Source of the DNA: Paremcibacter congregatus
Lineage (GTDB): Bacteria; Pseudomonadota; Alphaproteobacteria; Sphingomonadales; Emcibacteraceae
NCBI RefSeq assembly: GCF_006385135.1
Contig: NZ_CP041025.1
Coordinates: forward strand, 1,705,501 to 1,769,500
Length of the DNA: 64,000 nt
Reading direction: 5' to 3'
Position 1 is the stretch's first letter; every line of letters begins with the position of its first letter. Made by a program: the position numbers and the translations under genes. Below, piece after piece: positions 54,084 through 57,357 of the stretch. A model generated the notes under the pieces. It made no database searches. It was not told the DNA's origin and worked only from the letters and a program-made list of their open reading frames with translations.

Positions 54084-54743
54084 ATGATGACGCTGAAATT
54101 GGTAATATTTGATTGTGATGGGGTTCTGGTGGACAGTGAAGCCTTGGCGAACCGCGAACTGCAGAAAGCGCTGGCCGAAGAGGGGCTTGTGATGAGTATG
54201 GAGGAGGTAGTTGAAGCCTTTGTTGGTCGGTCCATGAAAGCGGTTGTGGATATCTCAGGGCAGCGGTTGGGGCGGGCTTTGCCGGATGATTTTCTGGATC
54301 GCTTGCAGGTCAAGACATTTACCAAATTCAAATCCTCCCTGAAACCTGTCGCCGGTATTGCAGAGGTTCTGACCGGTTTGCAGGATATGCCATATCAAAC
54401 CTGTGTTGCATCCAGCGGGTCTCCTGACAAAATGGATCTGACCTTGGGCCTTACCGGTTTGAAGGCGTTCTTTGAGGGGCGGATCTATCATGCCGGGCAG
54501 GTGGCCCGGGGTAAACCCTACCCGGATTTGTTTTTATATGCCGCAGACCAAATGGGAGTCGATCCGGCTGAATGTCTTGTGGTGGAAGACAGCTTGCCGG
54601 GGGTTCAGGCGGCGGTCGCAGCCGGAATGGAAGTCTTGGCTTATGCAACCCGTGGACAGGATCGTAAGCTTGCGACAGCAGGAGGTATGGTCATCAAGGA
54701 GATGCATGAGGTGATCAAATATTTACAAGAGCCCTGCGTATAA
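54084..54743 (+). CDS. HAD-superfamily phosphatase (phosphoglucomutase/GPH-like)
   Basis: 219 aa. Motif I FDCDGVLVDSE near residue 9, motif II in CVASSGSPDKM, Lys in ARGKPYPDLFLYAADQMGV and motif IV CLVVEDSLPGVQAAVAAGM. A cap domain lies between residues 20 and 85. The branch includes beta-phosphoglucomutases and small sugar phosphatases; substrate unknown. Two ATGs in a row (54084, 54087) make the start uncertain by one codon. Confidence 0.88.
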   Translation: MMTLKLVIFDCDGVLVDSEALANRELQKALAEEGLVMSMEEVVEAFVGRSMKAVVDISGQRLGRALPDDFLDRLQVKTFTKFKSSLKPVAGIAEVLTGLQDMPYQTCVASSGSPDKMDLTLGLTGLKAFFEGRIYHAGQVARGKPYPDLFLYAADQMGVDPAECLVVEDSLPGVQAAVAAGMEVLAYATRGQDRKLATAGGMVIKEMHEVIKYLQEPCV

Positions 54744-54807
54744 AGAGCAGTAATATCATAACGTTATAAAGGGGCGGCCTTGTGTGCGATGCAGTATAAC
54801 TGCAGGC

Positions 54808-54838
54808 AAAAAAAATGCCGGGTTATAAAAACCCGGCA
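54808..54838 (-). terminator. intrinsic terminator of the candidate small RNA
   Basis: A 9-base-pair perfect stem TGCCGGGTT / AACCCGGCA, five-base loop and eight T residues leftward. Far from the lysR stop (215 bases), which suggests a separate transcript. Confidence 0.92.
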
Positions 54839-54985
54839 AGTCAAAATATAGGGAGGCTTCATGTCTTGGGAGACCATGAAACGGCTATGACCCGACATAG
54901 GGGAGGACTGGGTCATAGCAACTGAAATAACTTGGGAGGTATTTCAGAGGATGCTGCATCGCAACATCTTTATTCTGTTATAAAG
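54808..54985 (-). ncRNA. candidate small RNA with repeated anti-Shine-Dalgarno loops
   Basis: Read leftward: hairpin GAUGUUGC/GCAGCAUC (54950-54968); hairpin CUGAAAUA/UAUUUCAG (54922-54947), loop CCUCCCAAGU; hairpin CUAUGACCC/GGGUCAUAG (54885-54918), 16-base loop with CCUCCCC; hairpin UUCAUG/CAUGAA (54858-54880) with UCUCCC at its tip; single-stranded CCUCCC (54851-54856); then a terminator. A possible promoter is TTGACG (55014-55019), 16 bases, TAATGT (54992-54997). The pattern recalls alphaproteobacterial sRNAs (such as the alpha-r14/NfeR1 and CCUCCUCCC-motif groups) that mask ribosome-binding sites of mRNAs. Confidence 0.6.
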
Positions 54986-55052
54986 ATTTATACATTAAAG
55001 ACCACCTCAATTTCGTCAATGCAGCCATGCGTATTATGCATAGCTATGCGGA

Positions 55053-55937
55053 TCAGAAGCGGGCATCCTTGAATTGTTCAATGATGAAGTCTTTAAAGGC
55101 GGCAATACGCTTGGAATTCCGTGCTTCCTGGGTATACACCAGGTACGCGGGAAAGGCGGGTCCTTCTATGTCGTTGAGGATTCGGACCACATTTGTGGAG
55201 CCTTGCACCAGATAGTCGGGCAGAGCGGCAATGCCGACACCGGACTTTACGGCCTGCAAAACTCCATAAATGCTGTTGATTCGCAGAATTGGTTTGCGCT
55301 TCAGACCGTTTTCCTCATCCAGTACCCAGTCAATATTGCGAATCGGGCTGTGGCTGATATCACCGTACGTGACAATATTATGGTCATTCAGTTCTTCCAT
55401 CGATTCGGGCCGTCCTTTACGACTAAGGTATTCAGGGGAAGCATAAAGATGATGGTGAAACACGCCAACCTGACGCTGGATCAGATCGAGTTGTTGTGCG
55501 GGGTGGAAACGGATCGCCACATCGGCTTCCCGGGTCGTCAGGTCAAGATCGGTATCCGTGGCAAGAAGCTGTACGTTGATCTCCGGGTATTTTTCAATGA
55601 AGCTGCGAATGTTGTTCATCATCCAGGTGGATCCGAAGCTGAGTGTCGTGGTGATCTTGAGTTCACCCCGGGGCAGGTTGGTACCTTCAATCAGTTGTTG
55701 TTCTGTTACGTGAATTTTGGCGACCACCTCTTCGGCTGTCTTAAAGAGGGATTCGCCTTCATCAGTAAGGCTGAGACCACGGGCGTGGCGGTTAAAAAGC
55801 GTTGTATTGAGGCTTTCTTCCAGGGAACGAATTTGACGACTGACAGCGGATTGACTGAGATACAGTTTCTCGCCGGCATGGGTAAAACTGCCGGCAGACG
55901 CCACCACATGAAAAATTCTTAATTTATCCCAATCCAT
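55053..55937 (-). CDS. LysR family transcriptional regulator
   Basis: 294 aa. N-terminal winged helix-turn-helix (about residues 4-62) with FHVVASAGSFTHAGEKLYLSQSAVSRQIRSLE, then the periplasmic-binding-type effector domain (~88-290). It follows trxB on the same strand, an arrangement I recall from other alphaproteobacteria; a redox-linked role is possible but not shown. The ATG at 55937 has GGGA upstream. A 24-base inverted repeat at 56000-56023 is a candidate operator. Confidence 0.9.
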   Translation of the reverse strand: MDWDKLRIFHVVASAGSFTHAGEKLYLSQSAVSRQIRSLEESLNTTLFNRHARGLSLTDEGESLFKTAEEVVAKIHVTEQQLIEGTNLPRGELKITTTLSFGSTWMMNNIRSFIEKYPEINVQLLATDTDLDLTTREADVAIRFHPAQQLDLIQRQVGVFHHHLYASPEYLSRKGRPESMEELNDHNIVTYGDISHSPIRNIDWVLDEENGLKRKPILRINSIYGVLQAVKSGVGIAALPDYLVQGSTNVVRILNDIEGPAFPAYLVYTQEARNSKRIAAFKDFIIEQFKDARF

Positions 55938-55999
55938 GATCAATCCCGCTTGGTCGCATATTGCTTATTACTGGCCCGAAAGGAAGACATATCCCTCCA

Positions 56000-56120: not shown

Positions 56121-57068
56121 TTAATCCTGTTCTGCGAGGAAGGTTTCCGCTTCCAGGGCTGCCATGCAGCCCATACCGGCGGCTGTAACGGCTTGCCGAT
56201 AAATTTTATCGGTAACGTCGCCTGCGGCATACACGCCGGGAATGTCGGTAGCGGTGCTGTCAGGAGCTTTGAGAATATAGCCATCATCATCCATCTTGAC
56301 CTTGCCGGCAAAAATAGCGGTAGAGGGCTTGTGGCCAATGGCGATAAAGACGCCGTGGGCGTCAATGGTTGTAATTTGGTCGGTTTTGACGTTTTTGACC
56401 CGGGCGCCGGTGACACCGCCCATGGGGGGCTTATCCCCAACGATTTCTTCGATAACGGTATCCCAGAGAATCTCGACTTTGTCATTGGCGAGTAGGCGGT
56501 CTTCAAGAATCTTTTCACAACGCAATGCATCCCGGCGATGAATCAGGGTCACTTTTGAAGCAAAATTGGTAAGAAAGATTGCTTCTTCAACAGCGGTGTT
56601 CCCGCCGCCGACCACGATAACTTCCTTATTACGATAGAAGAAACCGTCACAAGTGGCGCAGGCAGAGACTCCAAACCCCTGGAAGGCTTTCTCGGATGGC
56701 AGGCCGAGCCACATGGCCTGGGCACCGGTGGAGATAATCACCGTATCGGCAATATAGACAGCGCCGGATTCCCCCGAACAAACGAAGGGTCTCTCATCAA
56801 AATTCACTTCTGTGATCATGTCGGTGATGATTTCTGCATCGACATTGCGGGCCTGTGCCTCCATTTGTTCCATAAGCCACGGGCCCTGGATGGGATCAGC
56901 AAAGCCAGGATAGTTTTCCACATCCGTGGTGATGGTAAGCTGACCACCTGGTTGCATGCCTTGGACGACAATCGGTTTCAGGTTGGCCCGGGCAGCGTAA
57001 ATTGCCGCCGTATAGCCCGCAGGGCCAGAACCGATAATCAATACTTTAGTGCGATGTTCCGTGGTCAT
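56121..57068 (-). CDS. trxB: thioredoxin-disulfide reductase
   Basis: 315 aa flavoenzyme that keeps thioredoxin reduced with NADPH. FAD motif GSGPAGYTAAIYAARA at residue ~13; redox pair CATC in GVSACATCDGFFYR; NADPH motif VVGGGNTAVEEA; C-terminal FAD motif GVYAAGDVTDKIYRQAVTAAG. GGAAAAG precedes the ATG at 57068; the longer open frame to 57161 is leader. lysR follows. Confidence 0.97.
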   Translation of the reverse strand: MTTEHRTKVLIIGSGPAGYTAAIYAARANLKPIVVQGMQPGGQLTITTDVENYPGFADPIQGPWLMEQMEAQARNVDAEIITDMITEVNFDERPFVCSGESGAVYIADTVIISTGAQAMWLGLPSEKAFQGFGVSACATCDGFFYRNKEVIVVGGGNTAVEEAIFLTNFASKVTLIHRRDALRCEKILEDRLLANDKVEILWDTVIEEIVGDKPPMGGVTGARVKNVKTDQITTIDAHGVFIAIGHKPSTAIFAGKVKMDDDGYILKAPDSTATDIPGVYAAGDVTDKIYRQAVTAAGMGCMAALEAETFLAEQD

Positions 57069-57357
57069 GTGCTTTTCCGTTATGCATGTAATGAGGCGAC
57101 AGAGAAAATATTTAAAGCTTTTGGCCCGAGATTCAACTGCTGACTGGAAAAAAAACATCATTGTTGTGGAGATTTTAAGGTTTTATAAGGTTTTCACAGC
57201 GATCTCCAGTGTAAAAATTTACATAAATTATGTGATAACTCTTTGTTTTAATAAAAGGAAAATTAAGGAGTTGTCTATATTGTGCGTTGATTATGTAAGG
57301 TTGTGCCGAGAGTATGCTTGAAATTTTCCTGTGAAATCAAAAGCTTTGGGGCTTGAA
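57069..57357. other. 289-base divergent region between trxB and the TadG-like gene
   Basis: AT-rich. No protein gene or stable hairpin was found. It must hold both promoters; none is clear enough to assign. Confidence 0.4.

Follow-up and report, generated by a model that had tools for sequence, protein, structure and literature searches.

A conserved multi-hairpin RNA element with anti-Shine-Dalgarno motifs downstream of an LsrB/VtlR-type regulator gene in Paremcibacter congregatus

Results

Genes and features at the locus

The DNA analysed here (the window) is a 64-kb stretch of the Paremcibacter congregatus chromosome, in which trxB, a lysR gene and a predicted small RNA (sRNA) gene follow one another on the minus strand (Table 1). 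The best solved relative of the LysR protein was, by far, 9HH1, the LsrB protein of Agrobacterium tumefaciens (PMC11975290). The use of LsrB as the query against the P. congregatus genome resulted in one match at E ≤ 1e-60, the window lysR (42% identity, E 4.6e-83). Judged from sequence comparison, the window LysR is the orthologue of A. tumefaciens LsrB, encoded next to trxB. A redox-sensing cysteine was looked for in this protein, whose sequence contains no cysteine, so that its signal must differ from the redox signal proposed for the LsrB of Agrobacterium.

Table 1. Features of the trxB-lsrB-sRNA locus (positions in the window)
Feature	Position	Strand	Basis
trxB, thioredoxin reductase, upstream of lsrB	56121..57161	-	TIGR01292, 405 bits, above cut-off
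lysR, LsrB/VtlR orthologue	55053..55943	-	PDB 9HH1 match, E 2e-82
Predicted LsrB/VtlR box, TGCATAATACGCATGGCTGCATT = TGCA-N6-GCAT-N3-TG-N3-T	55018..55040	-	both published LsrB sites
Probable -10 box, TATAAC	54976..54981	-	sequence
Predicted sRNA, 162 nt	54808..54969	-	fold; homologues with covariation; model R1 match, 177 bits
Hairpin H1, GAUGUUGC-GAU-GCAGCAUC, 8 bp, without CUCCC	54950..54968	-	fold; kept in relatives and class-wide
Hairpin H2, 8 bp, CCUCCCAAG in 10-nt loop	54922..54947	-	fold; two-sided changes
CUCCC, H2 loop	54938-54934	-	
Hairpin H3, 10 bp, UCCUCCCCU in 16-nt loop, motif open	54884..54919	-	two-sided changes
CUCCC, H3 loop	54905-54901	-	
Hairpin H4, GUUUCAUGGUCUCCCAAGACAUGAAGC, motif half in stem, CCCA in loop	54856..54882	-	fold; near-invariant sequence
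CUCCC, H4	54872-54868	-	
Linker CUCCCUAUAUUUUGACU, single-stranded, open anti-SD motif and A/U-rich stretch	54839..54855	-	pairing probabilities
CUCCC, linker	54855-54851	-	
Intrinsic terminator, 9-bp stem and U8	54808..54838	-	fold; 98.8% of cells paired

Structure of the RNA element

A first-pass annotation of the window had read positions 54808-54985 as a minus-strand multi-hairpin RNA of the anti-Shine-Dalgarno (anti-SD) type, and folding bore this out: the strand reached -63.9 kcal/mol versus -32.3 (sd 3.5) for 200 dinucleotide shuffles (z -9.0), none of which was equally stable. The element is thus real, but the interval is probably too long at its 5′ end, since the position of the -10 box and the point where the conserved structure begins place the probable transcript start near 54969; the probable -10 box falls within the 16 nt at the 5′ end of the interval. 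From 5′ to 3′, the predicted sRNA consists of H1, H2, H3, H4, a linker, a terminator and U8. The three motif-bearing hairpins and the 9-bp terminal stem with U8 had been recognised in the annotation, which had not named the motif-free H1 at the 5′ end. The A/U-rich stretch of the linker is a probable Hfq site; the genome holds one hfq gene.

The four CUCCC motifs occur as CCUCCCAAG in H2, UCCUCCCCU in H3, UCUCCCAAG in H4 and CCUCCCUAU. All four had been described as displayed in loops and linker; all are present, but in the isolated fold only H3 and the linker had a wholly unpaired CUCCC (unpaired probability of the linker motif, 0.97-1.0). The CU at the start of the motif was mostly paired in H2 and H4, leaving open the CCC and the next A, and because of this partial pairing the effective anti-SD seeds predicted by the fold may number only two. 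CUCCC occurs 41 times on the minus strand of the window, with a maximum of four per 120 nt, a density reached in one of 60 first-order Markov simulations of the strand; no other place in the window has three or more CUCCC followed by a hairpin and a T run.

Conservation and covariation

A DNA search of 41 genomes (own, genus, family and order) revealed homologues of the sRNA in 25 of them, with identities of 77-93% within the genus; the close relatives were, by name, metagenome-assembled genomes of Emcibacter sp. and Kordiimonadaceae. The covariance model R1, built from 11 same-genus copies, collected 38 homologues at E < 1e-23. In the R1-fitted alignment of these 38 sequences, two-sided changes were observed at 31 of the 46 base pairs, including every pair of H2 (8) and H3 (10), and amounted to 208 cells versus 52.6 after shuffling and 20-45 with the partners slid; both controls are reported because alignments A5 and A6 were fitted to the R1 structure. 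The same analysis at the level of the class gave two-sided changes at 45/46 pairs and 586 cells, versus 152 shuffled and 84-151 slid. A MAFFT alignment (A1), which was not fitted to the structure, recovered H3, each of its eight predicted pairs showing a two-sided change in one sequence or more. RNAalifold applied to this mixed alignment missed H1 and H2 because A1 was misaligned, a problem solved by the same-genus model. The first-pass annotation had made its reading depend on conservation and covariation in relatives, and these data uphold a conserved, structured sRNA gene with multiple anti-SD motifs.

Among the 38 sequences the terminator was the best conserved helix, CUCCC was retained in the linker of 38, in H3 of 34, in H4 of 27 and in H2 of 24, and H1 was free of the motif throughout (38/38). 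Across the class, H1, the core ACGU-CUCCC-AGACGUGAAGC-CUCCCUGUU and the terminator recur, and the middle hairpins differ in number and sequence. Two antisense R1 matches (17.8 and 15.9 bits) were dropped as weak.

A paralogue with five CUCCC motifs and the same upstream box was found in the P. congregatus genome (L021:2472-2628 = C1:3137189-3137345, plus strand; extent in the DNA search, 3137218-3137345). It lies between two genes, one encoding a protein of 213 aa and the other a TonB C-terminal protein, with no lysR nearby.

Linkage to lsrB across the Alphaproteobacteria

Matches to R1 were obtained in 123 of 385 alphaproteobacterial genomes. Orthologues of LsrB (E ≤ 1e-60) were present in 136 of 240 genomes of the class, and in 71 of the 74 R1-positive genomes of this 240-genome sample. 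In 57 of the 71 genomes holding both, the sRNA lies 71-440 nt downstream of lsrB on the same strand. LsrB has been called unique to Rhizobiales, based on a tree of representatives (PMC11975290); its spread in 136/240 genomes goes against that statement.

Copy number and context vary among these genomes. Two of them (L083 and L084) carry three tandem sRNA copies 3′ of lsrB, an arrangement to be compared with the tandem AbcR1/AbcR2, and three loci (L013, L031 and L032) show a second copy a few hundred bases from the lsrB-linked one, that of L013 without a box. In the genome of L068, trxB, a HAD gene and the sRNA are kept with neither an adjoining lsrB nor a box; regulator and site appear to have been lost together. 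HRC-8-4, described near a LysR gene in Rhodobacterales (PMC8632094), was rejected as a counterpart, being a different element that sits at cco operons.

The upstream box and the putative promoter

The region between lsrB and the sRNA contains a predicted LsrB/VtlR box within the inverted repeat AGCTATGC/GCATGGCT, and this box matches the published LsrB sites (PMC8844928, PMC10746234, PMC7486931). Its part TGCA-TAATAC-GCAT (55040-55027) corresponds to TGCA-N6-GCAT, through which LsrB activates NfeR1 (PMC10746234), and its part GCATGGCTGCATT (55030-55018) to GCAT-N3-TG-N3-T, through which LsrB activates AbcR1 (PMC8844928). The pattern TGCR-N6-GCA was present upstream of 39 of 52 homologues versus 0.7 expected from shuffles, and the end of the box lay mostly 57-62 nt before the model start. 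A TATAT-like -10 element occurs at roughly the same position in the relatives; no -35 element was recognisable in the sequence of the sRNA promoter.

In the 4.19-Mb genome the box pattern has seven sites, versus one for the backwards-pattern control. Three of the seven contain GCATGGCTG: those of the window sRNA, of the paralogue (C1, 3137117) and of a 78-aa ORF. This third palindromic LsrB-type box precedes an ORF starting MTNFVTTYNFMDLL (L059:1104-1340, minus strand; C1 near 314153-314177) that repeats internally, matches no Pfam family and possibly encodes an LsrB-regulated small protein. The set of three sites resembles the VtlR regulon of Agrobacterium, for which direct activation by VtlR is described for abcR1, for a further sRNA and for a small hypothetical protein (PMC7486931).

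Relation to described sRNA families

Searches with Rfam on the element, one of the checks proposed in the first-pass annotation, gave no family at the gathering score. No match to ar15 (RF02345) was obtained in 54700-55100 at E ≤ 10, four weak genome matches all lying elsewhere, and over 385 genomes this model yielded no positive above its cut-off, controls included, so that its negative result carries little weight. The search with RF02346 (ar35) was negative, and neither ar14 nor cuckoo-type families appeared among the Rfam matches up to E 10. The annotation had likened the layout to that of alpha-r14/NfeR1 RNAs; the motif CCUCCUCCC, expected in every hairpin loop of NfeR1/ar14 and cuckoo RNAs, is absent from the element, so that the defining motif lends no support to that kinship. 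It had also regarded the position after lysR as new. This claim does not stand, since at the AbcR locus, too, trxB and lsrB/vtlR precede the sRNA on its own strand, in the order trxB, vtlR, abcR1, abcR2 in Agrobacterium (PMC7486931), and the lsrB-sRNA arrangement recurs in the class; trxB, the LsrB/VtlR orthologue and the upstream box had not been part of that first reading.

With AbcR1/AbcR2 (ar15; Rhizobiaceae, Brucellaceae) the element shares the trxB-lsrB/vtlR neighbour and the LsrB box, CUCCC anti-SD motifs in loop and linker, several copies per genome, and an A/U-rich stretch with a U tail for Hfq (PMC7486931, PMC8844928, PMC5461406, PMC3712013). On the contrary, it is about 162 nt long instead of 114-121, has four hairpins plus linker and terminator instead of three hairpins, carries four motifs with none in the first hairpin instead of two, and its predicted targets are TonB receptors instead of ABC transporters. 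It resembles NfeR1 (ar14), cuckoo and CcsR-like RNAs in having several hairpins with variable stems and anti-SD motifs in the loops (PMC10746234, PMC3927594), and NfeR1 in its predicted TGCA-N6-GCAT site, but differs from these RNAs in its location at lsrB, in addition to the missing motif and family match. SorX (RF02784) and MmgR/suhB (RF00519) show a similar 3′ module (hairpin, single-stranded CUCCCU linker and terminator) but have no counterpart of H1-H3, SorX being moreover 3′UTR-derived, and the element scored below gathering with both models (31.8 bits versus 46.6 for SorX, 33.1 versus 41 for suhB/MmgR). An lsrB-linked homologue from a different genome (L069) reached 47.0 bits with the SorX model, above its cut-off. 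Sub-threshold matches to MicC, ncS16, anti-hemB and VqmR were driven by the terminator and were rejected. A separate MmgR-like sRNA (L038:1535-1604 = C1:3207539-3207632, plus strand; 35.9 bits, cut-off 41) is possibly the MmgR of P. congregatus.

Candidate targets

GGGAG, the complement of the motif, was found at the ribosome site of 29/70 TonB-dependent receptor genes versus 11/136 others (Fisher p 3e-8), an enrichment that may be partly indirect because the receptors have stronger Shine-Dalgarno (SD) sequences in general (median -8.0 versus -5.5 kcal/mol) and share ancestry. When only strong-SD genes were compared, the difference persisted, with 28/48 for receptors and 9/33 for others (p 0.005). 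Start codons were chosen in both gene sets by one rule, which favours SD-like sites. Regarding longer sites, GGGAGAC (the complement of H4) was present in six receptors and no other gene, and UAGGGAG (the complement of the linker) in six receptors and one other. Receptor genes showed no enrichment of TTGGGAG or GGGGAGG, so that the 3′ flank of the motif in H2/H4 and the extra C of H3 seem to add no specificity. The ribosome site of one TonB-dependent receptor gene (L159, C1:2739948-2741648), AAATATAGGGAG, is complementary to the linker over 12 nt without a mismatch. Altogether, these data are suggestive, not proof, of TonB-dependent receptors as the predicted target class.

Discussion

From the computed structure, conservation, covariation, box, linkage to lsrB and enrichment of complementary sites in receptor genes, we infer, with a probability of about 0.77, that the element is an LsrB-activated and probably Hfq-dependent trans-acting sRNA that blocks translation at GGGAG Shine-Dalgarno sites. 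It would be transcribed from its own promoter, on activation by the LsrB/VtlR-type LysR encoded immediately upstream, bound about 60 nt before the start, and would end at its own terminator. Binding of Hfq to the A/U-rich linker and to U8 would probably stabilise the RNA. Translation of many mRNAs would be stopped when the CUCCC motifs, chiefly those of the open H3 loop and the linker, pair with GGGAG at the ribosome-binding site, in the same mode as AbcR1 and NfeR1. Since the organism has 93 TonB plug domains, the main targets here would likely be TonB-dependent receptors, and not the ABC transporters of rhizobia.

A different view of membership, compatible with this mechanism, is that the sRNA is a plain AbcR (ar15) member for which the Rfam model is too narrow. 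Such a narrow model is conceivable because the ar15 search passed its cut-off nowhere, ar15 homologues have been claimed outside Rhizobiales, in Caulobacter (PMC6561178), and locus, regulator, promoter box and the anti-SD motif in the linker are shared. On the other hand, ar15 does not match the element, H1 lacks the anti-SD that marks the AbcR 5′ loop, there are extra hairpins, and in its 3′ module the element comes closer to mmgR and SorX. Plain membership is thus unlikely, although it is the alternative to be taken most seriously. Because ar15 and ar14 matches, a 5′-hairpin anti-SD and CCUCCUCCC are all absent, we have not filed the element under AbcR or NfeR1; it appears to be a multi-hairpin equivalent of the rhizobial AbcR sRNAs, and the two may have a common ancestor, the ar15 model having scored above cut-off nowhere.

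The sRNA could also lack a promoter of its own and be, for the most part, the 3′ end of the trxB-lsrB mRNA with its terminator, set free by RNase cleavage as with SorX. From the lsrB stop (55053) to the element no further terminator can be seen, and the 3′ module resembles that of SorX, but the box, the -10 element and the box-to-start spacing are all conserved and the paralogue has the same box away from any lysR, which makes this origin improbable. Less probable still is that the CUCCC loops serve as sponges or bind proteins instead of being antisense seeds. Protein sponges such as CsrB are likewise built of short motifs repeated in hairpin loops; however, CsrA recognises GGA, the complement of the motif, and not CUCCC. 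Moreover, receptor ribosome sites are enriched in complementary sites, and the anti-SD motifs of AbcR and NfeR1 have been shown to pair (PMC8844928, PMC10746234). The good conservation of the terminator could finally suggest a terminator with merely fortuitous hairpins, a reading refuted by the covariation of H1-H3, besides the invariant linker CUCCC and the conserved box.

The preferred reading, that of an LsrB-activated anti-SD sRNA, turns a structure undescribed in the open-licence literature into a testable circuit made of a regulator, a promoter box, an RNA and candidate targets, and R1 provides a family model where Rfam offers none. More tentatively, and at somewhat less than even odds, LsrB and an adjoining anti-SD sRNA might be an old unit of most Alphaproteobacteria, with AbcR1 as its rhizobial form, H1 and the 3′ core as constant parts around which hairpins came and went, and control redirected from ABC transporters to TonB-dependent receptors in receptor-rich lineages. 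The preferred reading itself implies that the LsrB-AbcR type of circuit, known from work on plant symbionts and on pathogens of plants and animals, is widespread in the class, given the LsrB orthologues in 136/240 genomes, and for marine bacteria the finding offers the hypothesis of a global control of nutrient receptors.
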